64,000 bases of DNA from assembly GCF_003860345.1 (NCBI RefSeq), contig NZ_CP034179.1, positions 1 to 64,000 of the forward strand, written 5' to 3'. Of this stretch, positions 1 through 22,199 are shown one piece after another; the stretch's first letter is position 1, and every line of letters begins with the position of its first letter. The DNA is from Caenibius tardaugens NBRC 16725. Lineage in GTDB: Bacteria; Pseudomonadota; Alphaproteobacteria; Sphingomonadales; Sphingomonadaceae. Under the pieces are notes generated by a model, which saw nothing but the letters and a program-made list of their open reading frames with translations, searched no databases and was not told the DNA's origin. The position numbers and the translations under genes were made by a program.

Positions 1-467
1 TTTCACATCGATGCTCGATCAATCGATGGGCTGGGATACCGCAGCGCAGATCCGTCAGGAATGGGGCGGTACTTTCTGCCTCAAAGGGTGATGAGCGCGG
101 GCGATGCACGCCGGGCCGTGGAAATCGGTGCCGACGCGATCATGATATCCAATCACGGCGGTCGTCAATTGGACGGCAGCCGCGCCCCGTTCGACAGTTG
201 CGCGAAATCGTCGACGCGGTCGGCGGAAAAATCGAGATCATCTGCGATGGTGGTGTGAAGCGTGGCACGCACGTGCTGAAAAGCCTGTGCGCAGGGGCCA
301 CGGCCGCTTTCGGGCGGACGCCTCTATCTCTATGCGCTGGCGGCGGCGGGTTATGCCGGGTGGAACGCGCGGTGGCTATTCTTCAGGATGAAATTATCCG
401 CGATATGAAGCTGATGGGCGTAACATCCGTCGATCAGTTGCAACCGGACATGCTGCGCTGGCGTTAA
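1..467 (+). pseudogene. lldD: FMN-dependent L-lactate dehydrogenase, 3' fragment with frameshifts (left copy)
   Basis: The 3' 40% of the gene found intact at 8975-10123. Relative to that copy it has a missing G near 88, a missing C near 195, an extra T near 309 and a missing G near 360, so the reading frame changes four times before the shared TAA. The His-Gly-Gly-Arg active-site stretch can still be read between the shifts. All changes are one-base length differences and the other two copies are intact, so I read them as sequence error at a contig end and not as gene decay. Confidence 0.85.
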
Positions 468-476
468 GCCCAACGC

Positions 477-986
477 TCAGGGATGGGGCAAATCGGCCCC
501 GGCCCTCGATCCCACCAGCCCGTCCCTGTGCAACGCGATCCCTGTCAGCAGACTGTCCGCGATCATGCGCGCGCGTTCCCCGACCAGTCGCACCGCCTCC
601 TCACTCGCCCCTTCGGCGCGCAATGTGCTGTAAAACAGGTCGAGCCAGTGGGCGAAATGCTGCCGATCGAGACCGGATATGGCGACATGTTTGGGCATGG
701 GATTGCCGGAATATTCGGCGCTGCTGAACAGGATGGAACGCCAGAACCGCTTCATCTGCCCCAGATGCCCATCCCAGTCGGTAACTTTGGCCGAAAAAAT
801 CGGCCCCAACAGCTCATCCGCCCTGATCCGGGCATAGAAGCTGTCTACCAAACGCGAAACGAACGCATCATCCACGCCCAGCGCCTGCGCGCGGGCGCGC
901 CGGTCTGCCCGGGCACGCAGGGCGAAGGCATGATGGTCTTCATGCGTTTCTCCGCGCGGACTGGAAGGGTTATCCCTGTCGGGCAT
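477..986 (-). CDS. Group III truncated haemoglobin (left copy)
   Basis: Identical in sequence to the globin genes at 10133-10642 and 19791-20300, where the annotation is given. The coding sequence is undamaged here: the nearest indels of this copy lie at 360 and 999, just outside it. Confidence 0.8.
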   Translation of the reverse strand: MPDRDNPSSPRGETHEDHHAFALRARADRRARAQALGVDDAFVSRLVDSFYARIRADELLGPIFSAKVTDWDGHLGQMKRFWRSILFSSAEYSGNPMPKHVAISGLDRQHFAHWLDLFYSTLRAEGASEEAVRLVGERARMIADSLLTGIALHRDGLVGSRAGADLPHP

Positions 987-1007
987 GGGAAACGATCCCC
1001 GGGATAA

Positions 1008-1040
1008 GCGAAAAGGCGCGCCGGGCTCTCCAGCGCGCCT
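1008..1040 (-). terminator. Rho-independent terminator after sdhA (left copy)
   Basis: A GC-rich 9-bp stem (AAGGCGCGC/GCGCGCCTT) followed by a short T-run on the minus strand, just past the sdhA stop codon. Same element as at 20326-20356. Confidence 0.65.
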
Positions 1041-1047
1041 TCCGATA

Positions 1048-2978
1048 TCAATATACGCGGGCCTTGGGCTTGATGTACTGAACATCGTCGGTCAGCGTGA
1101 ATTCGTGGACCGGACGGTAATCGAGCTTCACCTCGCCGCCCTTGCCGCCCCATCCGTTGAACCAGCCAACGGTGTGCTTCATCCAGTTGGCATCGTCACG
1201 GTTCGGGAAATCCTCGTGCGCATGGGCGCCGCGGCTTTCCTTGCGGGCGTAGGCGCCGCTCATCGTGACGCTGGCCTGCGAGATCAGGTTATCGAGTTCC
1301 AGCGTTTCGATCAGGTCCGAATTCCAGATCAGCGAACGGTCAGACACGTGAATGTCCTGCATGCGCTTGTAGGTATCGGCCAGCTTGGTCACGCCTTCGG
1401 CCATCAGTTCATCCGTGCGGAACACAGCGGCATGGGCCGACATGGTACGCTGCATTTCGGTGCGGACTTCCGCGGTGGGAGAACCCCCTTGGCATTGCGG
1501 AAGTGATCGAGGCGGCCCAGCGCCAGATCGGCCGAATCCTTGGGTAGACCGTTGTGGGCCGTGCCCGGCTTGATCAGTTCCTTCAGGCGATGGCCGGTCG
1601 CACGGCCGAACACCACGAGATCGATCAGGGAGTTCGATCCGAGACGGTTTGCACCGTGGACGGACACGCAGGCGGCTTCGCCCACAGCGAACAGACCCGG
1701 CACAACCGTTTCCGGGTTCCCATCGGCACCGATGGTGACGACTTCGCCGTGATAGTTACAGGGGATACCGCCCATGTTGTAATGCACAGTCGGAACCACG
1801 GGCAAAGGCTGGCGGGCCAGATCCACGCCAGCGAAAATCTTGCCGCTTTCGGTAATGCCGGGCAGACGTTCTGCCAGCACCTTGGGATCGATATGATCGA
1901 GGTGAAGGTAGATATGGTCCTTGTGCGGGCCTACACCGCGACCTTCGCGGATTTCCATCGCCATCGAACGCGACACAACGTCGCGGCTGGCGAGATCCTT
2001 GGCCGACGGCGCATAGCGTTCCATAAAACGCTCACCCTCGGAGTTGGTGAGATAACCACCTTCGCCGCGCGCGCCTTCGGTGATCAACACGCCCGCACCG
2101 TAAATCCCCGTAGGGTGGAACTGCACGAATTCCATGTCCTGCATCGGCAGGCCCGCGCGCAGTACCATCCCGCCACCGTCGCCGGTGCAGGTGTGGGCCG
2201 AGGTCGCGGTGAAATAGCTGCGTCCGTATCCGCCAGTGGCGAGCACAACGGCGTGGCTGCGGAAACGGTGGATCGAACCATCGTCCATGCACATGGCGAT
2301 CACGCCACGGCAGACCGGAACGCCATCAGGGCCGTTTTCCATGATCAGGTCGATCGCGAAGTATTCGATGAAGAAGTCTGCATCGTACTTCAGCGACTGC
2401 TGATAAAGCGCGTGCAGCATGGCGTGGCCGGTACGGTCGGCGGCAGCACAAGTGCGCTGCACCGGCGGGCCTTCCCCCATATGTGGATAGCGCAAACCCA
2501 ATCTGGCGTGCGTTGCCTCCCCGTTTTCGGGAAGTGAAGGCGTGGTGCCGCGAAGGCTGTTCACTCTGACATCAAGCGGCGCGCGATCGAGCAGGGTCGC
2601 AAGTTCGGCAGCATCCATGCCGGATGCCACAAGCCGCTTTTCCAGCCACGCTGGCGCGCTTCCGCCTTCCGCCACCGGTTCGCCATCGCGTACCGGTTCG
2701 GGGCCATGCCGCGATCCGTCAAACAACGAGGCAAGCGAAGGGTCGTCTGCCACCAGCCGCAGCATCGCCGCACGTCCTGTCGCCGGAACCGGCCCGCAGG
2801 CGCGGATCGCACGGAACAACAGCTCCCGCACCGCCCGCCGGTCTTTCGATCCGGCAAACCGCCGGGTCCGGAACCATTCGGTCACGATTCTGTCGGCAGG
2901 GGCGCGGCGTTCGCTGGCCGCATCGATGACCAGATCCAGTACCTCGATAGCGGCCTGAACGCGTGCCGCAGGGGTCAT
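1048..2978 (-). pseudogene. Chimeric rsmB'-sdhA' gene, frameshifted copy
   Basis: The same fusion as at 10705-12636: the first 166 codons of rsmB joined to sdhA from Met135 onward. In this copy a run of five C at 1484-1488 replaces the six C of the other copies. This breaks the frame late in the sdhA part, so the long frame stops at 1404 and the last 135 residues are read in another frame. The shift is most simply a homopolymer error. Upstream the gene overlaps the 79-aa gene by 4 nt and would be transcribed with guaB. Confidence 0.85.
2473..2492. other. Duplication junction 1 (rsmB/sdhA novel joint)
   Basis: To the left, the plus strand reads as sdhA up to cccccatat (ending 2482). To the right it reads gtggatagcg, which is the inside of rsmB. 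Intact sdhA has cccccatattctg at the same place. The bases shared by sdhA and the joint give at most a few bases of microhomology; the exact length needs the intact rsmB sequence, which is not in this window. Confidence 0.9.
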
Positions 2979-3214
2979 TGTCCACGACCGATCAAGGCAT
3001 CGTAATCAGCAGGCGACGGAGCTTCGACACAGAAATAGCGATGCTGCGCCGCGACCTTGTCCGCCGCCCTGCCGAGCCCTGCCATGAAGGCCGCGCCTTG
3101 CGCCTCACAGGCTTCTCTGCTGGGCTGGAGCGATTGCGCCACTTCCATGCTATCTGCCGGCGATGCGGGATTCCAGCCAACCAGAATCAGCAGATAAGGC
3201 AAAAACGCTTCCAT
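2975..3214 (-). CDS. Small exported protein of unknown function, 79 aa
   Basis: A 79-residue protein with a short hydrophobic N-terminus (residues 3-14, [11 protein letters not shown]) that could be a signal peptide or anchor. A polar remainder carries two Cys, in SREACEAQG and HRYFCVEAP, which could form a disulfide outside the cytoplasm. It starts 6 nt after the guaB stop, and its stop overlaps the rsmB start as ATGA, so it is translated within a guaB-small gene-rsmB operon. I recognise no domain. The tight packing on both sides supports a real gene. Confidence 0.65.
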
Positions 3215-3220
3215 GCGGCG

Positions 3221-4749
<1,529 letters not shown>

Positions 4750-4815
4750 TAGCTGTGATTCACGCAGGCGCGCATTCCCCGTCGCGATCACACCTCCTGA
4801 CCGGAGTAGACCCGC

Positions 4816-5571
4816 TTACTGCGCGGTCCAGCCCCCATCGAGCGAGAAGTTCGAACCGGTGATATTGCCCGCTTCCTCGCGGCACAAAAACACCGCCATC
4901 GCCCCCAGATCCTCGACCTGCGTAAACCGCTTGGTGGGTTGCCCCGCCAGCAGGACGTCGTTGATCACCTGTTCGCGTGTCAGATTGCGCGCTTTCATGG
5001 TGTCGGGAATCTGGTTTTCGACCAGTGGCGTCCAGACATAGCCGGGGCTGACGCAATTGGCTGTCACCCCGCTTTGCGCCAGTTCCAGCGCCACGGTCTT
5101 CGTCAGCCCGGCCAGACCATGCTTGGCCGCAACATAGGCGGATTTGAACGGCGAGGCGGTGAGCGAATGGGCACTGGCGGTATTGATGATACGCCCCCAC
5201 CCCTGCCCTTTCATATAAGGCACCGCCAGACGAATCGTATGGAACGCCGCACTGAGATTCAGCGCGATAATCTTGTCCCATTTCTCCACCGGGAAATCTT
5301 CTACCGGGGAAACGAACTGCATGCCCGCATTGTTGACGAGAATGTCCACGTTGCCCGCAGCGGCCATCAGGGTTTCGGCCCCTTCAGGCTGAGTCAGATC
5401 CGCATCCACGTGCACAGCACCGATTTCCGCGCAGATTGCCGCGATCGCATCTTGATCACCGAAGCCCGTGATCACGGTTTCAGCATCTTCGGCCGCCAGC
5501 GCCCGGGCAATTGCAAGACCGATCCCGGATGTCGACCCGGTAACCAATGCGCGTTTTCCCTTGAGAAACAT
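4816..5571 (-). CDS. D-3-hydroxybutyrate dehydrogenase (SDR family, first full unit)
   Basis: Probably interconverts 3-hydroxybutyrate and acetoacetate with NAD(H), linking stored polyhydroxybutyrate or ketone bodies to acetyl-CoA. The 251-residue protein shows the classical SDR signature: TGSTSGIG at 11-18, NNAG at 80-83, catalytic Ser133, and Tyr146 with Lys150 in YVAAK. The stretch SPGYVWTPLV followed by QPTKRFTQVEDLG is typical of the hydroxybutyrate dehydrogenase branch. I start at MFLKGKRALV because AAGGAG sits 6 nt upstream; the ATG 11 codons earlier has no such site. It is transcribed away from the zinc peptidase gene. Substrate is inferred from family resemblance. Confidence 0.82.
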   Translation of the reverse strand: MFLKGKRALVTGSTSGIGLAIARALAAEDAETVITGFGDQDAIAAICAEIGAVHVDADLTQPEGAETLMAAAGNVDILVNNAGMQFVSPVEDFPVEKWDKIIALNLSAAFHTIRLAVPYMKGQGWGRIINTASAHSLTASPFKSAYVAAKHGLAGLTKTVALELAQSGVTANCVSPGYVWTPLVENQIPDTMKARNLTREQVINDVLLAGQPTKRFTQVEDLGAMAVFLCREEAGNITGSNFSLDGGWTAQ

Positions 5572-5668
5572 CCTCGACTCCTTGCATGTGGACAAACAAG
5601 GCATGCGCCAGAGTCACCGAAAAGGTCCAGTCCTTTTCGCAAGTGCAATATGATTGAGGGAGGCAGCG

Positions 5669-6547
5669 ATGCGGCTCAAGGATTTCAACCCCGGTAATAT
5701 CCGCGTCGAAGACCAGCGCGGCATGGGCGGCGGTATGCGTTTCCCCGGTGGCGGTGGTGGCAAGCTGGGTTGCGGCTCCATCATCATCATCGCCATCGCG
5801 GCGCTCGTGTTCGGAGTCGATCCCGCACAGATGCTGGGCGGCCTCCAGCAGGTGCAGCAGCAGGGTGGTGAAGCCGCTGCCCCCGCCCAGGGCGGCAAGA
5901 CGACGGAAGAAAGCTGCAACAGCGACCCGCTCAGCCGCGAAAGTTGCGCCGCGCTCGCTTCGCTCAACGCGACATGGGAACCCCTGTTCAAACAGGCTAA
6001 CATCCCGTTCCAGCAACCCAAGCTGGTCTTCTATTCGCAAGCGGGCAGTTCAGGCTGCGGCGCAGCGCAAAGCGCGATGGGGCCCTTCTATTGCCCCAGC
6101 GACAGCGGAATCTATATCGACACCGATTTCTATCGGGAAATGGAACAGCGCCTTGGGGCGGGCGGCGATTTCGCACGGGCATACGTGATGGCGCATGAAT
6201 ATGGGCATCATATCCAGACCATGACCGGCATTGCCGATCAGGTCCGCCAGGCGCAGCAGCGCAACCCCAATGCCGCCAACCAGCTTCAGGTGCGCATGGA
6301 ATTGCAGGCGGATTGCTATGCCGGGGTCTGGGCGGCCAAGAACAAGGATCTGATTGAGCCCGGCGATATCGAGGAAGGCCTGAATGCGGCCCATCAGATC
6401 GGCGATGACACTTTGATGAGCAAATCGGGCCAGCGTCCAGTCGAAGCCGCCTTCACTCACGGCAGCAGCGCCCAGCGCAAGGAATGGCTCCAGCGCGGAC
6501 TGCAGTCGGGCGACGAGGACAAGTGCGATACCTTTGCCGATCTCTGA
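5669..6547 (+). CDS. Neutral zinc metallopeptidase, YpfJ-like (first full unit)
   Basis: A predicted membrane-anchored metalloprotease of the PF04228 type; its substrate is not known. The 292-residue protein has a Gly-rich cytoplasmic start, one transmembrane segment at about 35-50 (GSIIIIAIAALVFGV), and the zinc motif HEYGH at 176-180 followed by a second His and an ELQADCYAG segment that supplies the distal ligand. FYCPSDSGIYID is also typical of the family. I start at MRLKDFNPG because GAGGGAGG lies 5-6 nt upstream. The next gene follows after 22 nt on the same strand and may be co-transcribed. Confidence 0.85.
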   Translation: MRLKDFNPGNIRVEDQRGMGGGMRFPGGGGGKLGCGSIIIIAIAALVFGVDPAQMLGGLQQVQQQGGEAAAPAQGGKTTEESCNSDPLSRESCAALASLNATWEPLFKQANIPFQQPKLVFYSQAGSSGCGAAQSAMGPFYCPSDSGIYIDTDFYREMEQRLGAGGDFARAYVMAHEYGHHIQTMTGIADQVRQAQQRNPNAANQLQVRMELQADCYAGVWAAKNKDLIEPGDIEEGLNAAHQIGDDTLMSKSGQRPVEAAFTHGSSAQRKEWLQRGLQSGDEDKCDTFADL

Positions 6548-6569
6548 CAAGTCTTATACATTGTTTTGA

Positions 6570-7439
6570 ATGCGATTGATCCCCACCGTTCTGGGTGCCT
6601 GCGCGCTGGTGCAGGCATCCGCCATTCTCGCTCAGGAAGCGCAGCCATCCCCACTGGATAAGCCGGTAACGGATGATTCCGTATCTGCGGGGGATGTCGC
6701 GCTGACACCGCTCACCGATCTTAATCTGGCGCGGGACGAAATCCCCGAACTGCTCGTGCAGGCCCGCGCCGCGCCTTACGATATGGCGGGGCTGGAGGGC
6801 TGCGGCGATATCGTCGCAGCGGTCGAAAAGCTCGACATTGTGCTGGGGGAAGATCTCGACACCGCCGATGTACAGCAACGAGACGTAAATGCCGGGCGCA
6901 TAGCCCAATGGGCCGTCGGGCGGTTCATTCCGTTCCGCGGGCTGATCCGCGAAGTTTCCGGCGCGCGGGCGCACGAACGAAAATTGCGCGACGCAGTGAT
7001 CGGCGGAATGATGCGGCGCGCTTACCTCAAGGGCCTCGGCCATCAAAAAGGATGCGCCTACCCCGCACGCCCCGCACCGCCGGAAGATATCCAAGCCATC
7101 AAGACCGACCGGGTGGTGGCGCAACAGACCGCGATGGCGGAAGTCGCAACCGACAGGGTTGCCGCAGCCGAACAGAAAATCGCGGACAAGCGCGCGAACG
7201 AACAGTTTGAGGACGCGGCTGAACGCGCAGCGGATCAGCGCAAGGCGGAAGACAGACGCGCCGCACGCGAACGCCGCGAAGCGGAAAAGCGTGCAACGCA
7301 GGAACGAAAGGCTGCCGAGAAACGCGCCAAAGCGGTCGAAAAGCAAGCAACCCGGAAACAACAGGCCGATGCAAATGACGGGCCCCGATATGTATCGGAG
7401 CCCGTCGTGCAACCTGCAACCCGAATCAGGCGGCGTTAA
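6570..7439 (+). CDS. Secreted coiled-coil protein of unknown function (first full unit)
   Basis: A 289-residue protein with a likely signal peptide (residues 1-21, cleaved after ILAQ). A globular part to about residue 170 includes GCGDIVAAVEKLD and MMRRAYLKGLGHQKGC. The C-terminal third is a highly charged helix of Ala-, Glu- and Arg/Lys-rich repeats (DRRAARERREAEKRA) like the stalk of TolA-type proteins, ending in a Pro/Arg-rich tail. I recognise no named family. It follows the zinc peptidase by 22 nt and overlaps the convergent creD gene by 4 nt. The start has no clear Shine-Dalgarno sequence. Confidence 0.75.
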   Translation: MRLIPTVLGACALVQASAILAQEAQPSPLDKPVTDDSVSAGDVALTPLTDLNLARDEIPELLVQARAAPYDMAGLEGCGDIVAAVEKLDIVLGEDLDTADVQQRDVNAGRIAQWAVGRFIPFRGLIREVSGARAHERKLRDAVIGGMMRRAYLKGLGHQKGCAYPARPAPPEDIQAIKTDRVVAQQTAMAEVATDRVAAAEQKIADKRANEQFEDAAERAADQRKAEDRRAARERREAEKRATQERKAAEKRAKAVEKQATRKQQADANDGPRYVSEPVVQPATRIRRR

Positions 7440-8863
7440 GCCCCTGTGGACTGGGCCGGGATAGCGGGTTCTTCACTGCTGCGGCCGACGGCCGACCAGT
7501 TGACCCCGCGCGTTGCGTACATCACGCCAGCCAGCGCCACGAACAGCAGGACCGCGCCGATCAACAGCGACCACGCCTCGAGGCTGAGCAGGACGTAGAG
7601 CAGCGCATAGAGACCCAACAGTAGCGCCCCGATAAAGCCTGCGCGGCGCCAGCTTCCCAGCACCGCAGCGCTGTAGGCTGTCAGCAGGCCGATGATCGCC
7701 GCACTGGCCAGTAGATAGGCTGCTGTAAATCCGATCACTTCGGCAAATGCCAGAAGCAGCACGAAGAACAGTACCAGCCCGGCCCCGGTCAGGAGATATT
7801 CGGCCGCGGAAACACGTGCGCCCGCAACGACATCGAACATCAGGAAGGCCAGGAAGGTGAAGCCGATAAACAGGAAACCGTACTTCACCGAACGGTCCAC
7901 GCGGCTGTAAAGATCGACCGGTTCGACAAGACCGACCGTAACAGCCAGCGATTGCCCGTTGATCGTTTCCGCCCGTTCCGCCGCCATGACGTTTACGGAC
8001 GAATACGACCCGTTCAGATCATCGGTGATGACCGGCGGACCGAGGTCTTCATCAGCCACTGGCGCTTGTCCCAGCGCGAGCTTGTCGACCGTGTAGGAGG
8101 CCTTGAATCCCTTGTCCGAAATGCTGCGGCTTTCGGGCAGGAACGCCCCGCTGAAGCTCGGGCTCGGCCAGGTCGATGCCACGTCCCACTTGGTCTGGCC
8201 GCCGCGCGGCACCATGCTCAACGAACGGCTGCCTCGCAGACTGAACGCATAATCGACATTGAGCGGTGCCTTCCCGTCCCAATTGAGAAACGCAAAGAAG
8301 CCCTGCCCGCTGGTGGCGCCCGGTCCACGGCCCGGTTCCACCGAGAGCGGTTGCCCGTTGGCCGTAAACCGGCCGCCTTTGGTCAGGCCGCGCGCATCCG
8401 AAACGCCCATGCGAAGTTCCGCGCGATCCCATTCGAGCCGCTCCGGCGTAACGCCGAACCGCGGGAGATCGGGCGGCAGGGCAAAGTTCGCCTTGCCCGC
8501 CACATTGGCTTCAAACAACACGCTGCGATAAATGGATTTGCGCCGTTCCTGCGGTTTCAAAGCGGTTGTTACGGTATTGGAAACCGGAGAAATATACAGC
8601 AACCGTTCCACCTCGATCGTGCGGCTGACCGTCTTTCCGGCAACTTCCTCATTCTGAACCTGTGTGGTCTTGAACGGCACCACCACGACCGGCCCTGCAA
8701 CGATCTGGGGGCTGCCCCAACCGGCGGTAATGCTGTCCTGCGCGATACGCGACTGGCCCTGCCGATCGCTGACCAGTGCATAGACGAATACCAGGGGAAT
8801 GATCAGTGCCGCACCGATCAGAACAGCGAACAGAAGCTTTATTCCGGGACTTCGCTCACGCAT
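7436..8863 (-). CDS. creD: CreD-family inner membrane protein (first full unit)
   Basis: A 475-residue integral membrane protein of the CreD (CET) family, in other bacteria linked to the CreBC response and to envelope integrity and beta-lactam tolerance. There is one N-terminal transmembrane segment (about 8-30), a long periplasmic domain containing the family stretch GWGSPQIVAGPVVVVPF, and a cluster of about five or six transmembrane segments between residues 325 and 455. No creB/creC genes are in the window. The gene is divergent from the lactate dehydrogenase gene and converges with the coiled-coil gene, overlapping its end by 4 nt. Confidence 0.88.
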   Translation of the reverse strand: MRERSPGIKLLFAVLIGAALIIPLVFVYALVSDRQGQSRIAQDSITAGWGSPQIVAGPVVVVPFKTTQVQNEEVAGKTVSRTIEVERLLYISPVSNTVTTALKPQERRKSIYRSVLFEANVAGKANFALPPDLPRFGVTPERLEWDRAELRMGVSDARGLTKGGRFTANGQPLSVEPGRGPGATSGQGFFAFLNWDGKAPLNVDYAFSLRGSRSLSMVPRGGQTKWDVASTWPSPSFSGAFLPESRSISDKGFKASYTVDKLALGQAPVADEDLGPPVITDDLNGSYSSVNVMAAERAETINGQSLAVTVGLVEPVDLYSRVDRSVKYGFLFIGFTFLAFLMFDVVAGARVSAAEYLLTGAGLVLFFVLLLAFAEVIGFTAAYLLASAAIIGLLTAYSAAVLGSWRRAGFIGALLLGLYALLYVLLSLEAWSLLIGAVLLFVALAGVMYATRGVNWSAVGRSSEEPAIPAQSTGA

Positions 8864-8974
8864 GATGCATCCTCTCCGTTGCGATGAACCGTTTTTTATG
8901 AGCGACGAATGAACGCTAGCTGACTCATCGGCAATGCCAGTTGCATCTGCGTTTCATCATGCTAGCTCTTGTCC

Positions 8975-10123: not shown

Positions 10124-10132
10124 GCCCAACGC

Positions 10133-10642
10133 TCAGGGATGGGGCAAATCGGCCCCGGCCCTCGATCCCACCAGCCCGTCCCTGTGCAACGCGATCCCTG
10201 TCAGCAGACTGTCCGCGATCATGCGCGCGCGTTCCCCGACCAGTCGCACCGCCTCCTCACTCGCCCCTTCGGCGCGCAATGTGCTGTAAAACAGGTCGAG
10301 CCAGTGGGCGAAATGCTGCCGATCGAGACCGGATATGGCGACATGTTTGGGCATGGGATTGCCGGAATATTCGGCGCTGCTGAACAGGATGGAACGCCAG
10401 AACCGCTTCATCTGCCCCAGATGCCCATCCCAGTCGGTAACTTTGGCCGAAAAAATCGGCCCCAACAGCTCATCCGCCCTGATCCGGGCATAGAAGCTGT
10501 CTACCAAACGCGAAACGAACGCATCATCCACGCCCAGCGCCTGCGCGCGGGCGCGCCGGTCTGCCCGGGCACGCAGGGCGAAGGCATGATGGTCTTCATG
10601 CGTTTCTCCGCGCGGACTGGAAGGGTTATCCCTGTCGGGCAT
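10133..10642 (-). CDS. Group III truncated haemoglobin (first full unit)
   Basis: A small haem protein of the 2-on-2 globin fold, expected to bind O2 or NO in the cytosol. The globin part begins near residue 37 (VDDAFVSRLVDSFYARI) and shows the group III pattern: LLGPIFSAKV, W71 and H74 in the WDGHLGQM stretch, FWRSIL, proximal His100 in PMPKHVAISGL, and FAHWLDLF. A 35-residue basic and His-containing N-terminal extension makes the protein (169 aa) longer than most of the group; a start further inside cannot be excluded. It lies downstream of sdhA on the same strand, behind a terminator-like hairpin. Confidence 0.8.
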   Translation of the reverse strand: MPDRDNPSSPRGETHEDHHAFALRARADRRARAQALGVDDAFVSRLVDSFYARIRADELLGPIFSAKVTDWDGHLGQMKRFWRSILFSSAEYSGNPMPKHVAISGLDRQHFAHWLDLFYSTLRAEGASEEAVRLVGERARMIADSLLTGIALHRDGLVGSRAGADLPHP

Positions 10643-10667
10643 GGGAAACGATCCCCCGGGATAAGCG

Positions 10668-10698
10668 AAAAGGCGCGCCGGGCTCTCCAGCGCGCCTT
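10668..10698 (-). terminator. Rho-independent terminator after the chimeric rsmB'-sdhA' gene
   Basis: The same AAGGCGCGC/GCGCGCCTT hairpin with a short T-run as at 20326-20356, here just past the stop of the fusion gene. Confidence 0.65.
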
Positions 10699-10704
10699 CC
10701 GATA

Positions 10705-12636
10705 TCAATATACGCGGGCCTTGGGCTTGATGTACTGAACATCGTCGGTCAGCGTGAATTCGTGGACCGGACGGTAATCGAGCTTCACCTCGCCGCCCTT
10801 GCCGCCCCATCCGTTGAACCAGCCAACGGTGTGCTTCATCCAGTTGGCATCGTCACGGTTCGGGAAATCCTCGTGCGCATGGGCGCCGCGGCTTTCCTTG
10901 CGGGCGTAGGCGCCGCTCATCGTGACGCTGGCCTGCGAGATCAGGTTATCGAGTTCCAGCGTTTCGATCAGGTCCGAATTCCAGATCAGCGAACGGTCAG
11001 ACACGTGAATGTCCTGCATGCGCTTGTAGGTATCGGCCAGCTTGGTCACGCCTTCGGCCATCAGTTCATCCGTGCGGAACACAGCGGCATGGGCCGACAT
11101 GGTACGCTGCATTTCGGTGCGGACTTCCGCGGTGGGAGAACCCCCCTTGGCATTGCGGAAGTGATCGAGGCGGCCCAGCGCCAGATCGGCCGAATCCTTG
11201 GGTAGACCGTTGTGGGCCGTGCCCGGCTTGATCAGTTCCTTCAGGCGATGGCCGGTCGCACGGCCGAACACCACGAGATCGATCAGGGAGTTCGATCCGA
11301 GACGGTTTGCACCGTGGACGGACACGCAGGCGGCTTCGCCCACAGCGAACAGACCCGGCACAACCGTTTCCGGGTTCCCATCGGCACCGATGGTGACGAC
11401 TTCGCCGTGATAGTTACAGGGGATACCGCCCATGTTGTAATGCACAGTCGGAACCACGGGCAAAGGCTGGCGGGCCAGATCCACGCCAGCGAAAATCTTG
11501 CCGCTTTCGGTAATGCCGGGCAGACGTTCTGCCAGCACCTTGGGATCGATATGATCGAGGTGAAGGTAGATATGGTCCTTGTGCGGGCCTACACCGCGAC
11601 CTTCGCGGATTTCCATCGCCATCGAACGCGACACAACGTCGCGGCTGGCGAGATCCTTGGCCGACGGCGCATAGCGTTCCATAAAACGCTCACCCTCGGA
11701 GTTGGTGAGATAACCACCTTCGCCGCGCGCGCCTTCGGTGATCAACACGCCCGCACCGTAAATCCCCGTAGGGTGGAACTGCACGAATTCCATGTCCTGC
11801 ATCGGCAGGCCCGCGCGCAGTACCATCCCGCCACCGTCGCCGGTGCAGGTGTGGGCCGAGGTCGCGGTGAAATAGCTGCGTCCGTATCCGCCAGTGGCGA
11901 GCACAACGGCGTGGCTGCGGAAACGGTGGATCGAACCATCGTCCATGCACATGGCGATCACGCCACGGCAGACCGGAACGCCATCAGGGCCGTTTTCCAT
12001 GATCAGGTCGATCGCGAAGTATTCGATGAAGAAGTCTGCATCGTACTTCAGCGACTGCTGATAAAGCGCGTGCAGCATGGCGTGGCCGGTACGGTCGGCG
12101 GCAGCACAAGTGCGCTGCACCGGCGGGCCTTCCCCCATATGTGGATAGCGCAAACCCAATCTGGCGTGCGTTGCCTCCCCGTTTTCGGGAAGTGAAGGCG
12201 TGGTGCCGCGAAGGCTGTTCACTCTGACATCAAGCGGCGCGCGATCGAGCAGGGTCGCAAGTTCGGCAGCATCCATGCCGGATGCCACAAGCCGCTTTTC
12301 CAGCCACGCTGGCGCGCTTCCGCCTTCCGCCACCGGTTCGCCATCGCGTACCGGTTCGGGGCCATGCCGCGATCCGTCAAACAACGAGGCAAGCGAAGGG
12401 TCGTCTGCCACCAGCCGCAGCATCGCCGCACGTCCTGTCGCCGGAACCGGCCCGCAGGCGCGGATCGCACGGAACAACAGCTCCCGCACCGCCCGCCGGT
12501 CTTTCGATCCGGCAAACCGCCGGGTCCGGAACCATTCGGTCACGATTCTGTCGGCAGGGGCGCGGCGTTCGCTGGCCGCATCGATGACCAGATCCAGTAC
12601 CTCGATAGCGGCCTGAACGCGTGCCGCAGGGGTCAT
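10705..12636 (-). CDS. Chimeric RsmB'-SdhA' open reading frame, 643 aa
   Basis: An uninterrupted frame made by the duplication. Residues 1-166 are the N-terminal NusB-like RNA-binding domain and linker of the 16S rRNA m5C967 methyltransferase RsmB ([45 protein letters not shown]). Residues 167-643 are succinate dehydrogenase flavoprotein from Met135 on. The fusion lacks the methyltransferase domain, the FAD-binding GxGxxG and the flavin-linking His of SdhA, so neither parent activity is expected. It keeps the rsmB start, overlapping the 79-aa gene as ATGA, and would be expressed with guaB. Whether a stable protein is made is unknown. Confidence 0.9.
12131..12150. other. Duplication junction 2 (rsmB/sdhA novel joint)
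   Basis: Identical to the joint near 2482. The sdhA-derived sequence ends at 12140 and rsmB-derived sequence starts at 12141. Recurrence of the same joint at a spacing of 9,658 bp defines the unit length. Confidence 0.9.
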
Positions 12637-12872
12637 TGTCCACGACCGATCAAGGCATCGTAATCAGCAGGCGACGGAGCTTCGACACAGAAATAGCGAT
12701 GCTGCGCCGCGACCTTGTCCGCCGCCCTGCCGAGCCCTGCCATGAAGGCCGCGCCTTGCGCCTCACAGGCTTCTCTGCTGGGCTGGAGCGATTGCGCCAC
12801 TTCCATGCTATCTGCCGGCGATGCGGGATTCCAGCCAACCAGAATCAGCAGATAAGGCAAAAACGCTTCCAT
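12633..12872 (-). CDS. Small exported protein of unknown function, 79 aa (second unit)
   Basis: Identical copy of the 79-aa gene at 2975-3214, with the same 6-nt spacing from guaB and 4-nt overlap with the rsmB start. Confidence 0.65.
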
Positions 12873-12878
12873 GCGGCG

Positions 12879-14407
<1,529 letters not shown>

Positions 14408-14473
14408 TAGCTGTGATTCACGCAGGCGCGCATTCCCCGTCGCGATCACACCTCCTGACCGGAGTAGACCCGC

Positions 14474-15229
14474 TTACTGCGCGGTCCAGCCCCCATCGAG
14501 CGAGAAGTTCGAACCGGTGATATTGCCCGCTTCCTCGCGGCACAAAAACACCGCCATCGCCCCCAGATCCTCGACCTGCGTAAACCGCTTGGTGGGTTGC
14601 CCCGCCAGCAGGACGTCGTTGATCACCTGTTCGCGTGTCAGATTGCGCGCTTTCATGGTGTCGGGAATCTGGTTTTCGACCAGTGGCGTCCAGACATAGC
14701 CGGGGCTGACGCAATTGGCTGTCACCCCGCTTTGCGCCAGTTCCAGCGCCACGGTCTTCGTCAGCCCGGCCAGACCATGCTTGGCCGCAACATAGGCGGA
14801 TTTGAACGGCGAGGCGGTGAGCGAATGGGCACTGGCGGTATTGATGATACGCCCCCACCCCTGCCCTTTCATATAAGGCACCGCCAGACGAATCGTATGG
14901 AACGCCGCACTGAGATTCAGCGCGATAATCTTGTCCCATTTCTCCACCGGGAAATCTTCTACCGGGGAAACGAACTGCATGCCCGCATTGTTGACGAGAA
15001 TGTCCACGTTGCCCGCAGCGGCCATCAGGGTTTCGGCCCCTTCAGGCTGAGTCAGATCCGCATCCACGTGCACAGCACCGATTTCCGCGCAGATTGCCGC
15101 GATCGCATCTTGATCACCGAAGCCCGTGATCACGGTTTCAGCATCTTCGGCCGCCAGCGCCCGGGCAATTGCAAGACCGATCCCGGATGTCGACCCGGTA
15201 ACCAATGCGCGTTTTCCCTTGAGAAACAT
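14474..15229 (-). CDS. D-3-hydroxybutyrate dehydrogenase (second unit)
   Basis: Identical copy of the SDR gene at 4816-5571, with the same AAGGAG ribosome binding site. Confidence 0.82.
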   Translation of the reverse strand: MFLKGKRALVTGSTSGIGLAIARALAAEDAETVITGFGDQDAIAAICAEIGAVHVDADLTQPEGAETLMAAAGNVDILVNNAGMQFVSPVEDFPVEKWDKIIALNLSAAFHTIRLAVPYMKGQGWGRIINTASAHSLTASPFKSAYVAAKHGLAGLTKTVALELAQSGVTANCVSPGYVWTPLVENQIPDTMKARNLTREQVINDVLLAGQPTKRFTQVEDLGAMAVFLCREEAGNITGSNFSLDGGWTAQ

Positions 15230-15326
15230 CCTCGACTCCTTGCATGTGGACAAACAAGGCATGCGCCAGAGTCACCGAAAAGGTCCAGTCCTTTTCGCAA
15301 GTGCAATATGATTGAGGGAGGCAGCG

Positions 15327-16205
15327 ATGCGGCTCAAGGATTTCAACCCCGGTAATATCCGCGTCGAAGACCAGCGCGGCATGGGCGGCGGTATGCGTTT
15401 CCCCGGTGGCGGTGGTGGCAAGCTGGGTTGCGGCTCCATCATCATCATCGCCATCGCGGCGCTCGTGTTCGGAGTCGATCCCGCACAGATGCTGGGCGGC
15501 CTCCAGCAGGTGCAGCAGCAGGGTGGTGAAGCCGCTGCCCCCGCCCAGGGCGGCAAGACGACGGAAGAAAGCTGCAACAGCGACCCGCTCAGCCGCGAAA
15601 GTTGCGCCGCGCTCGCTTCGCTCAACGCGACATGGGAACCCCTGTTCAAACAGGCTAACATCCCGTTCCAGCAACCCAAGCTGGTCTTCTATTCGCAAGC
15701 GGGCAGTTCAGGCTGCGGCGCAGCGCAAAGCGCGATGGGGCCCTTCTATTGCCCCAGCGACAGCGGAATCTATATCGACACCGATTTCTATCGGGAAATG
15801 GAACAGCGCCTTGGGGCGGGCGGCGATTTCGCACGGGCATACGTGATGGCGCATGAATATGGGCATCATATCCAGACCATGACCGGCATTGCCGATCAGG
15901 TCCGCCAGGCGCAGCAGCGCAACCCCAATGCCGCCAACCAGCTTCAGGTGCGCATGGAATTGCAGGCGGATTGCTATGCCGGGGTCTGGGCGGCCAAGAA
16001 CAAGGATCTGATTGAGCCCGGCGATATCGAGGAAGGCCTGAATGCGGCCCATCAGATCGGCGATGACACTTTGATGAGCAAATCGGGCCAGCGTCCAGTC
16101 GAAGCCGCCTTCACTCACGGCAGCAGCGCCCAGCGCAAGGAATGGCTCCAGCGCGGACTGCAGTCGGGCGACGAGGACAAGTGCGATACCTTTGCCGATC
16201 TCTGA
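15327..16205 (+). CDS. Neutral zinc metallopeptidase, YpfJ-like (second unit)
   Basis: Identical copy of the gene at 5669-6547, with the HEYGH motif intact. Confidence 0.85.
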   Translation: MRLKDFNPGNIRVEDQRGMGGGMRFPGGGGGKLGCGSIIIIAIAALVFGVDPAQMLGGLQQVQQQGGEAAAPAQGGKTTEESCNSDPLSRESCAALASLNATWEPLFKQANIPFQQPKLVFYSQAGSSGCGAAQSAMGPFYCPSDSGIYIDTDFYREMEQRLGAGGDFARAYVMAHEYGHHIQTMTGIADQVRQAQQRNPNAANQLQVRMELQADCYAGVWAAKNKDLIEPGDIEEGLNAAHQIGDDTLMSKSGQRPVEAAFTHGSSAQRKEWLQRGLQSGDEDKCDTFADL

Positions 16206-16227
16206 CAAGTCTTATACATTGTTTTGA

Positions 16228-17097
16228 ATGCGATTGATCCCCACCGTTCTGGGTGCCTGCGCGCTGGTGCAGGCATCCGCCATTCTCGCTCAGGAAGCGC
16301 AGCCATCCCCACTGGATAAGCCGGTAACGGATGATTCCGTATCTGCGGGGGATGTCGCGCTGACACCGCTCACCGATCTTAATCTGGCGCGGGACGAAAT
16401 CCCCGAACTGCTCGTGCAGGCCCGCGCCGCGCCTTACGATATGGCGGGGCTGGAGGGCTGCGGCGATATCGTCGCAGCGGTCGAAAAGCTCGACATTGTG
16501 CTGGGGGAAGATCTCGACACCGCCGATGTACAGCAACGAGACGTAAATGCCGGGCGCATAGCCCAATGGGCCGTCGGGCGGTTCATTCCGTTCCGCGGGC
16601 TGATCCGCGAAGTTTCCGGCGCGCGGGCGCACGAACGAAAATTGCGCGACGCAGTGATCGGCGGAATGATGCGGCGCGCTTACCTCAAGGGCCTCGGCCA
16701 TCAAAAAGGATGCGCCTACCCCGCACGCCCCGCACCGCCGGAAGATATCCAAGCCATCAAGACCGACCGGGTGGTGGCGCAACAGACCGCGATGGCGGAA
16801 GTCGCAACCGACAGGGTTGCCGCAGCCGAACAGAAAATCGCGGACAAGCGCGCGAACGAACAGTTTGAGGACGCGGCTGAACGCGCAGCGGATCAGCGCA
16901 AGGCGGAAGACAGACGCGCCGCACGCGAACGCCGCGAAGCGGAAAAGCGTGCAACGCAGGAACGAAAGGCTGCCGAGAAACGCGCCAAAGCGGTCGAAAA
17001 GCAAGCAACCCGGAAACAACAGGCCGATGCAAATGACGGGCCCCGATATGTATCGGAGCCCGTCGTGCAACCTGCAACCCGAATCAGGCGGCGTTAA
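16228..17097 (+). CDS. Secreted coiled-coil protein of unknown function (second unit)
   Basis: Identical copy of the gene at 6570-7439. Confidence 0.75.
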   Translation: MRLIPTVLGACALVQASAILAQEAQPSPLDKPVTDDSVSAGDVALTPLTDLNLARDEIPELLVQARAAPYDMAGLEGCGDIVAAVEKLDIVLGEDLDTADVQQRDVNAGRIAQWAVGRFIPFRGLIREVSGARAHERKLRDAVIGGMMRRAYLKGLGHQKGCAYPARPAPPEDIQAIKTDRVVAQQTAMAEVATDRVAAAEQKIADKRANEQFEDAAERAADQRKAEDRRAARERREAEKRATQERKAAEKRAKAVEKQATRKQQADANDGPRYVSEPVVQPATRIRRR

Positions 17098-18521
17098 GCC
17101 CCTGTGGACTGGGCCGGGATAGCGGGTTCTTCACTGCTGCGGCCGACGGCCGACCAGTTGACCCCGCGCGTTGCGTACATCACGCCAGCCAGCGCCACGA
17201 ACAGCAGGACCGCGCCGATCAACAGCGACCACGCCTCGAGGCTGAGCAGGACGTAGAGCAGCGCATAGAGACCCAACAGTAGCGCCCCGATAAAGCCTGC
17301 GCGGCGCCAGCTTCCCAGCACCGCAGCGCTGTAGGCTGTCAGCAGGCCGATGATCGCCGCACTGGCCAGTAGATAGGCTGCTGTAAATCCGATCACTTCG
17401 GCAAATGCCAGAAGCAGCACGAAGAACAGTACCAGCCCGGCCCCGGTCAGGAGATATTCGGCCGCGGAAACACGTGCGCCCGCAACGACATCGAACATCA
17501 GGAAGGCCAGGAAGGTGAAGCCGATAAACAGGAAACCGTACTTCACCGAACGGTCCACGCGGCTGTAAAGATCGACCGGTTCGACAAGACCGACCGTAAC
17601 AGCCAGCGATTGCCCGTTGATCGTTTCCGCCCGTTCCGCCGCCATGACGTTTACGGACGAATACGACCCGTTCAGATCATCGGTGATGACCGGCGGACCG
17701 AGGTCTTCATCAGCCACTGGCGCTTGTCCCAGCGCGAGCTTGTCGACCGTGTAGGAGGCCTTGAATCCCTTGTCCGAAATGCTGCGGCTTTCGGGCAGGA
17801 ACGCCCCGCTGAAGCTCGGGCTCGGCCAGGTCGATGCCACGTCCCACTTGGTCTGGCCGCCGCGCGGCACCATGCTCAACGAACGGCTGCCTCGCAGACT
17901 GAACGCATAATCGACATTGAGCGGTGCCTTCCCGTCCCAATTGAGAAACGCAAAGAAGCCCTGCCCGCTGGTGGCGCCCGGTCCACGGCCCGGTTCCACC
18001 GAGAGCGGTTGCCCGTTGGCCGTAAACCGGCCGCCTTTGGTCAGGCCGCGCGCATCCGAAACGCCCATGCGAAGTTCCGCGCGATCCCATTCGAGCCGCT
18101 CCGGCGTAACGCCGAACCGCGGGAGATCGGGCGGCAGGGCAAAGTTCGCCTTGCCCGCCACATTGGCTTCAAACAACACGCTGCGATAAATGGATTTGCG
18201 CCGTTCCTGCGGTTTCAAAGCGGTTGTTACGGTATTGGAAACCGGAGAAATATACAGCAACCGTTCCACCTCGATCGTGCGGCTGACCGTCTTTCCGGCA
18301 ACTTCCTCATTCTGAACCTGTGTGGTCTTGAACGGCACCACCACGACCGGCCCTGCAACGATCTGGGGGCTGCCCCAACCGGCGGTAATGCTGTCCTGCG
18401 CGATACGCGACTGGCCCTGCCGATCGCTGACCAGTGCATAGACGAATACCAGGGGAATGATCAGTGCCGCACCGATCAGAACAGCGAACAGAAGCTTTAT
18501 TCCGGGACTTCGCTCACGCAT
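17094..18521 (-). CDS. creD: CreD-family inner membrane protein (second unit)
   Basis: Identical copy of the gene at 7436-8863, with the same 4-nt convergent overlap. Confidence 0.88.
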   Translation of the reverse strand: MRERSPGIKLLFAVLIGAALIIPLVFVYALVSDRQGQSRIAQDSITAGWGSPQIVAGPVVVVPFKTTQVQNEEVAGKTVSRTIEVERLLYISPVSNTVTTALKPQERRKSIYRSVLFEANVAGKANFALPPDLPRFGVTPERLEWDRAELRMGVSDARGLTKGGRFTANGQPLSVEPGRGPGATSGQGFFAFLNWDGKAPLNVDYAFSLRGSRSLSMVPRGGQTKWDVASTWPSPSFSGAFLPESRSISDKGFKASYTVDKLALGQAPVADEDLGPPVITDDLNGSYSSVNVMAAERAETINGQSLAVTVGLVEPVDLYSRVDRSVKYGFLFIGFTFLAFLMFDVVAGARVSAAEYLLTGAGLVLFFVLLLAFAEVIGFTAAYLLASAAIIGLLTAYSAAVLGSWRRAGFIGALLLGLYALLYVLLSLEAWSLLIGAVLLFVALAGVMYATRGVNWSAVGRSSEEPAIPAQSTGA

Positions 18522-18632
18522 GATGCATCCTCTCCGTTGCGATGAACCGTTTTTTATGAGCGACGAATGAACGCTAGCTGACTCATCGGCAATGCCAGTT
18601 GCATCTGCGTTTCATCATGCTAGCTCTTGTCC

Positions 18633-19781
18633 ATGCGGCTCAAAGACTGTCACAACATCGACGATTTCCGGCTTCTCGCCAAGTCCCGACTGCCTTGGCC
18701 CGTCTTCGATTACATCGACGGCGCCGGTGACGATGAATTGACCCGCGCCCGTAACACCGCGGCTTATGCTTCCGCCGATCTGGTCCCCAATGTGCTGGCA
18801 GGCGTCGCCGATATCGATACCTCCTGCACGATCATGGGCCGCAAAAGCGCCCTTCCCCTTGTCCTCTCCCCCACAGCCTTGCAGCGGGTGTTCCATTGGG
18901 AAGGGGAACGGGCCGTCGCCCGGGCAGCGCACAAATTCGGGCTGTGGTGCGGCATTTCCAGTCTGGCGACAGTCAGCGTCGAAGAAATCGCCGCGATCAC
19001 CCAGGGCCCCAAGATGTTCCAGCTTTATGTCCACAAGGACAAGGGCCTGAATGCGTCCATGATTCAGCGGTGCAAGGATGCCCGGTTCGATGCGATCGCA
19101 CTGACTGTCGACACCATCGTCGGCGGCAAACGCGAACGGTGCCTGCGCAGCGGCTTCTCGAGCCCGCCAAGTTTCACGCCTTCGTCGTTCTTCTCCTATG
19201 CGATCAAACCGCGCTGGGCGCTGGATTACCTCCTGCGCGAAAAATTTCGCATGCCGATGCTGGAAACGCATTTTCAGGCGGATTCGCGCAAGGCCATGTC
19301 GATTGGCGATTATTTCACATCGATGCTCGATCAATCGATGGGCTGGGATACCGCAGCGCAGATCCGTCAGGAATGGGGCGGTACTTTCTGCCTCAAAGGG
19401 GTGATGAGCGCGGGCGATGCACGCCGGGCCGTGGAAATCGGTGCCGACGCGATCATGATATCCAATCACGGCGGTCGTCAATTGGACGGCAGCCGCGCCC
19501 CGTTCGACCAGTTGCGCGAAATCGTCGACGCGGTCGGCGGAAAAATCGAGATCATCTGCGATGGTGGTGTGAAGCGTGGCACGCACGTGCTGAAAAGCCT
19601 GTGCGCAGGGGCCACGGCCGCTTCGGGCGGACGCCTCTATCTCTATGCGCTGGCGGCGGCGGGTTATGCCGGGGTGGAACGCGCGGTGGCTATTCTTCAG
19701 GATGAAATTATCCGCGATATGAAGCTGATGGGCGTAACATCCGTCGATCAGTTGCAACCGGACATGCTGCGCTGGCGTTAA
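18633..19781 (+). CDS. lldD: FMN-dependent L-lactate dehydrogenase / alpha-hydroxy-acid oxidase (second unit)
   Basis: Identical copy of the gene at 8975-10123. Two intact genes and one 3' fragment are in the window. Confidence 0.88.
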   Translation: MRLKDCHNIDDFRLLAKSRLPWPVFDYIDGAGDDELTRARNTAAYASADLVPNVLAGVADIDTSCTIMGRKSALPLVLSPTALQRVFHWEGERAVARAAHKFGLWCGISSLATVSVEEIAAITQGPKMFQLYVHKDKGLNASMIQRCKDARFDAIALTVDTIVGGKRERCLRSGFSSPPSFTPSSFFSYAIKPRWALDYLLREKFRMPMLETHFQADSRKAMSIGDYFTSMLDQSMGWDTAAQIRQEWGGTFCLKGVMSAGDARRAVEIGADAIMISNHGGRQLDGSRAPFDQLREIVDAVGGKIEIICDGGVKRGTHVLKSLCAGATAASGGRLYLYALAAAGYAGVERAVAILQDEIIRDMKLMGVTSVDQLQPDMLRWR

Positions 19782-19790
19782 GCCCAACGC

Positions 19791-20300
19791 TCAGGGATGG
19801 GGCAAATCGGCCCCGGCCCTCGATCCCACCAGCCCGTCCCTGTGCAACGCGATCCCTGTCAGCAGACTGTCCGCGATCATGCGCGCGCGTTCCCCGACCA
19901 GTCGCACCGCCTCCTCACTCGCCCCTTCGGCGCGCAATGTGCTGTAAAACAGGTCGAGCCAGTGGGCGAAATGCTGCCGATCGAGACCGGATATGGCGAC
20001 ATGTTTGGGCATGGGATTGCCGGAATATTCGGCGCTGCTGAACAGGATGGAACGCCAGAACCGCTTCATCTGCCCCAGATGCCCATCCCAGTCGGTAACT
20101 TTGGCCGAAAAAATCGGCCCCAACAGCTCATCCGCCCTGATCCGGGCATAGAAGCTGTCTACCAAACGCGAAACGAACGCATCATCCACGCCCAGCGCCT
20201 GCGCGCGGGCGCGCCGGTCTGCCCGGGCACGCAGGGCGAAGGCATGATGGTCTTCATGCGTTTCTCCGCGCGGACTGGAAGGGTTATCCCTGTCGGGCAT
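19791..20300 (-). CDS. Group III truncated haemoglobin (second unit, native position)
   Basis: Identical copy of the gene at 10133-10642. Because the intact sdhCDA lies just upstream here, this shows the native order: sdhC-sdhD-sdhA, terminator, globin, all on the minus strand. Confidence 0.8.
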   Translation of the reverse strand: MPDRDNPSSPRGETHEDHHAFALRARADRRARAQALGVDDAFVSRLVDSFYARIRADELLGPIFSAKVTDWDGHLGQMKRFWRSILFSSAEYSGNPMPKHVAISGLDRQHFAHWLDLFYSTLRAEGASEEAVRLVGERARMIADSLLTGIALHRDGLVGSRAGADLPHP

Positions 20301-20325
20301 GGGAAACGATCCCCCGGGATAAGCG

Positions 20326-20356
20326 AAAAGGCGCGCCGGGCTCTCCAGCGCGCCTT
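20326..20356 (-). terminator. Rho-independent terminator after sdhA
   Basis: AAGGCGCGC at 20328-20336 pairs with GCGCGCCTT at 20348-20356, and the minus strand continues with TTTT. It begins 7 bp past the sdhA stop and separates the sdh operon from the globin gene. Confidence 0.7.
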
Positions 20357-20362
20357 CCGATA

Positions 20363-22198
20363 TCAATATACGCGGGCCTTGGGCTTGATGTACTGAACAT
20401 CGTCGGTCAGCGTGAATTCGTGGACCGGACGGTAATCGAGCTTCACCTCGCCGCCCTTGCCGCCCCATCCGTTGAACCAGCCAACGGTGTGCTTCATCCA
20501 GTTGGCATCGTCACGGTTCGGGAAATCCTCGTGCGCATGGGCGCCGCGGCTTTCCTTGCGGGCGTAGGCGCCGCTCATCGTGACGCTGGCCTGCGAGATC
20601 AGGTTATCGAGTTCCAGCGTTTCGATCAGGTCCGAATTCCAGATCAGCGAACGGTCAGACACGTGAATGTCCTGCATGCGCTTGTAGGTATCGGCCAGCT
20701 TGGTCACGCCTTCGGCCATCAGTTCATCCGTGCGGAACACAGCGGCATGGGCCGACATGGTACGCTGCATTTCGGTGCGGACTTCCGCGGTGGGAGAACC
20801 CCCCTTGGCATTGCGGAAGTGATCGAGGCGGCCCAGCGCCAGATCGGCCGAATCCTTGGGTAGACCGTTGTGGGCCGTGCCCGGCTTGATCAGTTCCTTC
20901 AGGCGATGGCCGGTCGCACGGCCGAACACCACGAGATCGATCAGGGAGTTCGATCCGAGACGGTTTGCACCGTGGACGGACACGCAGGCGGCTTCGCCCA
21001 CAGCGAACAGACCCGGCACAACCGTTTCCGGGTTCCCATCGGCACCGATGGTGACGACTTCGCCGTGATAGTTACAGGGGATACCGCCCATGTTGTAATG
21101 CACAGTCGGAACCACGGGCAAAGGCTGGCGGGCCAGATCCACGCCAGCGAAAATCTTGCCGCTTTCGGTAATGCCGGGCAGACGTTCTGCCAGCACCTTG
21201 GGATCGATATGATCGAGGTGAAGGTAGATATGGTCCTTGTGCGGGCCTACACCGCGACCTTCGCGGATTTCCATCGCCATCGAACGCGACACAACGTCGC
21301 GGCTGGCGAGATCCTTGGCCGACGGCGCATAGCGTTCCATAAAACGCTCACCCTCGGAGTTGGTGAGATAACCACCTTCGCCGCGCGCGCCTTCGGTGAT
21401 CAACACGCCCGCACCGTAAATCCCCGTAGGGTGGAACTGCACGAATTCCATGTCCTGCATCGGCAGGCCCGCGCGCAGTACCATCCCGCCACCGTCGCCG
21501 GTGCAGGTGTGGGCCGAGGTCGCGGTGAAATAGCTGCGTCCGTATCCGCCAGTGGCGAGCACAACGGCGTGGCTGCGGAAACGGTGGATCGAACCATCGT
21601 CCATGCACATGGCGATCACGCCACGGCAGACCGGAACGCCATCAGGGCCGTTTTCCATGATCAGGTCGATCGCGAAGTATTCGATGAAGAAGTCTGCATC
21701 GTACTTCAGCGACTGCTGATAAAGCGCGTGCAGCATGGCGTGGCCGGTACGGTCGGCGGCAGCACAAGTGCGCTGCACCGGCGGGCCTTCCCCCATATTC
21801 TGCATGTGACCGCCGAACGGGCGCTGGTAAATCGTGCCATCGGCGTTGCGGCTGAACGGCACACCGGCATGTTCAAGCTCGTAAACCGCCTGCGGCGCTT
21901 CGCGCACCATGTATTCGATCGCGTCCTGATCGCCCAGCCAGTCCGACCCCTTCACGGTGTCGTACATGTGCCAGGTCCAGTGGTCCGGCGAGTTGTTGCC
22001 GAGCGACGCGGCAATACCACCCTGCGCCGCCACGGTATGCGAACGGGTCGGGAACACCTTGGTGATGCAGGCGGTTTTCAGACCGGCTTCAGCCGAACCC
22101 ATCGTAGCGCGCAGACCAGAGCCGCCAGCGCCGACAACCACCGTATCATAGGTGTGATCGATAATCTTGTATGCGGCCTGAGTAGATGCGGAAGCCAT
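20363..22198 (-). CDS. sdhA: Succinate dehydrogenase flavoprotein subunit
   Basis: Catalytic subunit of respiratory complex II; oxidises succinate to fumarate on covalent FAD at the cytoplasmic face of the inner membrane. The 611-residue protein has the FAD-binding [10 protein letters not shown] at 21-30, the flavin-linked His54 in [10 protein letters not shown], the substrate region HPTGIYGAG...TEGARGEGG, and the C-terminal [19 protein letters not shown]. The start lies one base after the sdhD TAA, with GGAGG in the end of sdhD as ribosome binding site. This is the only intact copy in the window. Codons 135-611 are also present, fused to rsmB, in the repeat units. No sdhB follows: a terminator and a globin gene take that place. 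Confidence 0.97.
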
Positions 22199-22199
22199 G

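Follow-up and report, generated by a model that had tools for sequence, protein, structure and literature searches.

A 9,658-bp tandem repeat across the contig ends of Caenibius tardaugens NBRC 16725: tandem duplication or assembly artefact

Introduction

The chromosome record of Novosphingobium (now Caenibius) tardaugens NBRC 16725 (CP034179) opens inside a 9,658-bp segment that is repeated head to tail, and this raises the question of whether the repeat is a real tandem duplication or was written by the assembly. CP034179 is a single contig of 4,358,096 bp with a GC content of 61.2%, which was made with PacBio RS II and HGAP v3.0 with default options (PMC6424214). The library is printed as a "10-kb SMRTbell template library of 9,172 kb", and the PacBio yield was 1,248,591,484 bases with a mean subread length of 6,067 bp and an N50 of 7,616 bp (PMC6424214). 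This published yield divided by the genome size gives 286-fold coverage, and the reads are deposited as SRR8271516. As the unit of 9.66 kb exceeds the reported subread N50, the reads can hardly count tandem copies, and three units (29 kb) would be more than such a library should give. The first part of the announcement neither describes a circularisation step nor mentions a duplication (PMC6424214), and the string "duplicat" is absent from the main texts, supplements aside, of the publications on the strain that were checked for it. An older assembly of the strain has 4,291,514 bp in 54 contigs (PMC5443232), and its difference in length from CP034179, taken from these published totals, is uninformative on duplication.

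Results

Organisation of the repeat

The window, i.e., the whole stretch of 64,000 nucleotides that was analysed, comprises bases 1-64000 of the contig and has a GC content of 61.3%. Shifted by 9,658 bases against itself, the window shows an unbroken match from position 1484 to 12140 (10,657 bases), for which a chance origin is excluded. The initial annotation, made from the letters of the window, had claimed a head-to-tail repeat with a period of 9,658 bp and two identical full copies, all of which this comparison bears out. It had also suggested that the array may run past the window, and a search of the whole genome found the missing 0.74 copy at contig 4350926-4358096. Base-by-base alignment shows that unit bases 1-7171 close the contig and unit bases 7172-9658 open it; together, these terminal 7,171 bases and initial 2,482 bases make up one further unit (hereafter the wrapping copy), and the two ends meet without gap or overlap. 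The earlier count of at least 2.26 copies therefore holds inside the window, while the record taken as a circle contains three, a figure that is not supported on its own. The parts of the array and the open reading frames (ORFs) at its two joints are as follows.

1..2482, no strand: opening part of the wrapping copy (unit 7172-9658), with six single-base indels in its first 1,483 bases; the remainder is at contig 4350926-4358096
2483..12140, no strand: full copy of the 9,658-bp unit, identical to 12141-21798
12141..21798, no strand: full copy of the 9,658-bp unit that adjoins the ancestral right flank, which is continuous with the unit in relatives
1404..2978, minus strand: ORF at the first joint, 524 aa, shortened by the indels at the contig start (from ORF and alignment)
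10705..12636, minus strand: joint ORF, 643 aa, RsmB residues 1-165 in frame with the last 477 residues of SdhA (from ORF and breakpoint analysis)

The wrapping copy differs from the other copies by seven single-base homopolymer indels (six deletions and one insertion) at unit positions 5301, 7258, 7368, 7481, 7531, 8171 and 8659. Six of them are within contig positions 1-1483, and the seventh lies 1.87 kb before the contig end, while from base 1484 onward the wrapping copy shows no difference to the next copy. By their coordinates the indels affect creD, the gene for an FMN-dependent dehydrogenase (four indels), a globin-like gene and the sdhA fragment: the creD ORF encodes 375 aa vs. 475 aa elsewhere, and the match of the sdhA fragment is broken in two. 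This pattern is as expected of raw contig ends. The low-quality ends are at unit 7171/7172, and the joint (unit 9658/1) is clean at both of its occurrences.

Joint and edges

Both edges of the array lie inside genes on the minus strand, the left one in an rsmB-type gene and the right one in sdhA, so that the proposed rsmB/sdhA joint was found where the initial annotation had placed it. A joint made at random is in frame one time in three. The rsmB-type gene carries a Pfam RsmB/F domain and scores under the NCBIfam RsmB cut-offs. In the fusion, the Pfam FAD-binding domain starts only at profile position 88, so the predicted product would not be expected to be an active SdhA.

The breakpoints have zero bases in common. 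Within 50 bp of both breakpoints no shared word exceeds 6 bases, a length that 138 of 150 random pairs attained, and the longest inverted match within 300 bp of the edges is 11 bases, which 5 of 40 random pairs reached. Repeat-mediated duplication is ruled out by these edges without shared sequence. Joining without homology is possible in this organism, as its genome encodes a Ku homologue (G000 2269328-2269867, 169 bits). Neither Rfam matches at gathering score nor tRNAs were found in the window (0 each). Recombination at the terminus site (dif) is weakly disfavoured, as no dif-like motif with ≤3 mismatches was matched in the window, which holds part of the array; the motif is not specific to the host group.

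Genes in the unit

The genes of the unit are listed below with their profile scores, by their positions in the second full copy.

12879..14381, minus strand: guaB (IMP dehydrogenase), in the unit; TIGR01302, 623 bits (cut-off 482)
14474..15262, minus strand: 3-hydroxybutyrate dehydrogenase, in the unit; TIGR01963, 338 bits (cut-off 307)
15312..16205, plus strand: neutral zinc metallopeptidase (YpfJ/KPN_02809 family), in the unit; NF050010, 330 bits (cut-off 250)
17094..18521, minus strand: creD, in the unit; NF008712, 388 bits (cut-off 275)
18627..19781, plus strand: FMN-dependent 2-hydroxy-acid dehydrogenase (lldD of the initial annotation), in the unit; Pfam FMN_dh, 419 bits, under the NCBIfam LldD cut-offs
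19791..20468, minus strand: globin-like gene, in the unit; Pfam Bac_globin, 25.0 bits (cut-off 21.0)
20363..22282, minus strand: intact sdhA, which spans the right edge of the array; TIGR01816, 938 bits (cut-off 727)

The names first given to guaB, 3-hydroxybutyrate dehydrogenase, the zinc peptidase and creD stand, since all four, like sdhA, pass their NCBIfam cut-offs. Two other names had to be loosened. The gene called lldD clearly encodes an FMN-dependent 2-hydroxy-acid dehydrogenase by Pfam, but it falls short of the two NCBIfam LldD models (269 bits against a cut-off of 376 and 233 bits against a cut-off of 550), and the gene described as a group III globin exceeds the cut-off of Pfam Bac_globin but matched no NCBIfam model. 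For the region described as encoding a coiled-coil protein, two readings were tried and neither matched Pfam or NCBIfam. No replication gene is among the families that Pfam and NCBIfam identify in the unit.

Relatives

In all five relatives for which both edges were fetched, two of the same genus (G002 and G003) and three of the same family (G018, G011 and G017), the edges are uninterrupted with one copy of the segment between them, and alignment shows rsmB and sdhA intact through both edges. The inner content and spacing of the segment differ between genera. In another genome of the same genus (G001), the right edge is continuous and the contig stops near the left edge. Among 80 named loci, the closest relatives of sdhA are mostly from Novosphingobium. 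When 600 bases with the joint at their centre were used to query 199 genomes of the family, that of the strain included, 191 gave any match, and among the matches listed only those in the strain's own genome span both halves.

Contig ends of other genomes

As a control, the first and the last 20 kb were compared in the first 20 of 32 listed single-contig genomes other than its own, and direct matches with a length of ≥300 bp and ≥90% identity were retained. None of the 20 has a tandem repeat of several kb in these stretches. One of them (G063) keeps an end overlap of 11.4 kb at 98.4% identity: its start at 6349-17758 equals its last 11.4 kb, and its first 6.3 kb are unmatched in its last 20 kb (L147 and L148). 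Another single-contig genome (G010) has an 836-bp tandem repeat of 99% identity near its contig start (L177:5927-7592), and a third (G121) contains 2,500 N in the compared stretches.

Chromosomal setting

GC skew was calculated for eleven 20-kb samples. The five samples between 0.1 and 1.7 Mb have negative values and the six between 2.1 and 4.1 Mb positive ones, and negative values recur at 4.338-4.351 Mb and over most of the window. The dnaA gene lies at 2.517 Mb. The usual GC-skew rule would put the terminus between 4.12 and 4.34 Mb, with the array on its far side, and low depth near the terminus in growing cells could help the contig break there.

To the left of the array is a minus-strand gene with POR and POR_N domains (pyruvate or 2-oxoacid:ferredoxin oxidoreductase type; L009:7966-9921, contig 4346062-4348017), in a host that is described as aerobic (PMC6424214). 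Two further repeats were observed elsewhere in the contig. A minus-strand ORF of 4,324 aa (L184:3313-16287, contig 503313-516287), which looks like a giant repeat protein, contains direct repeats with a period of 765 bp (255 codons) and 94-98% identity from about 7816 to 13371; Tandem Repeats Finder, whose longest period is 500, returned 0 rows for this region. A 3,003-bp direct repeat of 99.9% identity occurs 12.6 kb apart (L185:2963-5965 and 15566-18568, contig 902963-905965 and 915566-918568), contains an ORF of 836 aa and is possibly a mobile element.

Discussion

We propose that the array may be a real short-junction tandem duplication (or a short amplification), whose copy number is not fixed by the record and which HGAP left at loose contig ends. 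Judged from sequence, this reading has about an even chance of being right, and it is held slightly more likely than an assembly artefact. The initial annotation had put forward both readings, a recent amplification and an assembly loop. The record contains identical head-to-tail units between otherwise ancestral flanks and a joint without long shared sequence, as in short-junction tandem duplication-amplification, and the ancestral order of the relatives, with both edge genes uninterrupted, counts for a real duplication. The assembler should stop inside a real array, and the contig ends do sit there. The chance that a given 29-kb stretch holds the contig ends is 0.66%, so the array and the contig ends are linked one way or the other.

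Under the proposed model, a point in sdhA would have been joined to a point 9.66 kb away in rsmB with no bases shared, which would yield head-to-tail copies with a fused rsmB'-'sdhA at the joint and leave the rsmB of the left edge and the sdhA of the right edge intact. Between such identical units, unequal recombination could then add or remove copies, and the copy number may vary between cells. Reads would probably not be placeable among the copies, and the overlap walk may have passed the unit an arbitrary number of times before it stopped. The last step of the model is what the record displays, i.e., low-quality contig ends that lie inside the unit and abut in register.

Against a real duplication and for an artefact stand the place of the array, at the ends of a contig whose ends are of low quality, where assembly errors gather, and the unit length, which is near the printed insert size of the library (10 kb; "9,172 kb"). 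The lack of any apparent selection and the silence of the first part of the announcement on a duplication (PMC6424214) also count against a real one. Were the array an artefact, to which we assign a chance somewhat short of even, the chromosome would have one copy of the segment, and chimeric or mis-overlapped reads near the ends, or the closing of overlapping ends, would have written the extra units. The lack of homology at the joint fits such an origin, the overlap kept by one of the 20 control genomes shows that ends of about this size stay untrimmed in such records, and Pseudoalteromonas haloplanktis assemblies are reported to contain false tandem copies of 1.2 and 1.6 kb, one of which minimus2 created at the ends of contigs (PMC6848147). 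Contig-end errors in assemblies are also documented elsewhere (PMC4699355). Gluing of untrimmed ends, however, would produce one joint at the low-quality ends. Because the joint is clean and the low-quality ends are at unit 7171/7172, the joints were inside the raw contig and were not made by gluing its ends; the simple form of artefact, in which the joint is the glue point, is thus not what is found, and gluing as the sole cause is disfavoured, while artefacts by looping stay within the chance given above. Independent chimeras would be expected to have different breakpoints, and repeated passes over a single chimeric template should pile up at a single joint, so that the two joints would point to several joint-bearing molecules. 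Likewise, as an overlap assembler uses each read once, two joints would need more than one joint-bearing read with different extents. The lack of a several-kb tandem repeat at the ends of the 20 control genomes also speaks against an artefact.

It is improbable that the duplication is real in a minority of the cells only (or exists as excised 9.66-kb circles) and that joint reads were woven into a mostly single-copy sequence. Such variation has precedents: stocks of Helicobacter pylori SS1 and PMSS1 carry 1 to 4 identical tandem 5,072-bp cagA units, for which the sequence data alone gave no number (PMC5358919), and the frequency of duplication at any one site is estimated at 10^-2 to 10^-5 per cell (PMC12607827). 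At these frequencies, however, joint reads would be few at 286-fold coverage if the founding cell did not itself carry the duplication, and no replication gene is among the families found in the unit.

The array resembles several known systems. Like the cat amplifications of Acinetobacter baylyi, which are joined at 0-5 bp of shared sequence, it consists of head-to-tail chromosomal copies with little or no shared sequence and intact edge genes (here by sequence), but the Acinetobacter baylyi amplicons are 12-290 kb, were selected and are documented by blots and joint sequencing (PMC9997567), whereas the unit here is 9.66 kb long, is not known to be selected and is known from the record sequence. 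Its identical tandem units, with a number not given by sequence data, recall the cagA array of Helicobacter pylori SS1/PMSS1, whose copy number was determined by Southern blot and tied to the amount of protein (PMC5358919), in contrast to the record sequence here. It is also like the false tandem repeats from assembly or circularisation of Pseudoalteromonas haloplanktis TAC125 in being a tandem copy in the assembly of a circular chromosome, one of those being at overlapped ends; the end-made repeat of TAC125, however, has ten N at its joint (PMC6848147), whereas the much longer unit here has two clean joints and errors away from them. In Anabaena sp. WA102, a promoter triplication was backed by read coverage (PMC4907049), and a tandem rRNA operon is present in an HGAP assembly of Desulfuromonas soudanensis (PMC4914508).

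If real, the array would be an ordinary spontaneous tandem duplication, and if not, an error in the record. A 17.8-kb duplication is reported to be lost at about 10^-3 per generation, with 50% lost in 630-770 generations (PMC12607827). The identity of the copies had been read as a sign of a recent event, which is weak evidence, since reads shorter than the unit, drawn from a single pool, would tend to give copies that look alike; the age of the array is therefore not informed by it. No selection for the array is apparent. The suggestion that globin or lactate dehydrogenase dosage was selected found nothing in its support, and both gene names are weaker than claimed; amplification, dosage and selection are not established as a biological claim. 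We regard it as very unlikely that the stock of the type strain holds a variable array of at least three 9.66-kb units, formed by homology-free end joining, with an in-frame RsmB(1-165)-SdhA(C-terminal) fusion at each joint, a raised dose of guaB and of the 3-hydroxybutyrate dehydrogenase, FMN-dependent dehydrogenase and globin-like genes, and an effect on the cell.

Published work on steroid degradation uses CP034179 as its reference and has mapped RNA-seq reads onto it; reads of guaB, sdhA and the genes next to them would align at several positions. If the copies are false, about 19 kb of CP034179 are surplus, and the record contains frameshifted duplicates of genes as well as two fusion ORFs. 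If they are true, the strain has a gene-dosage feature that is absent from the publications on the strain examined.
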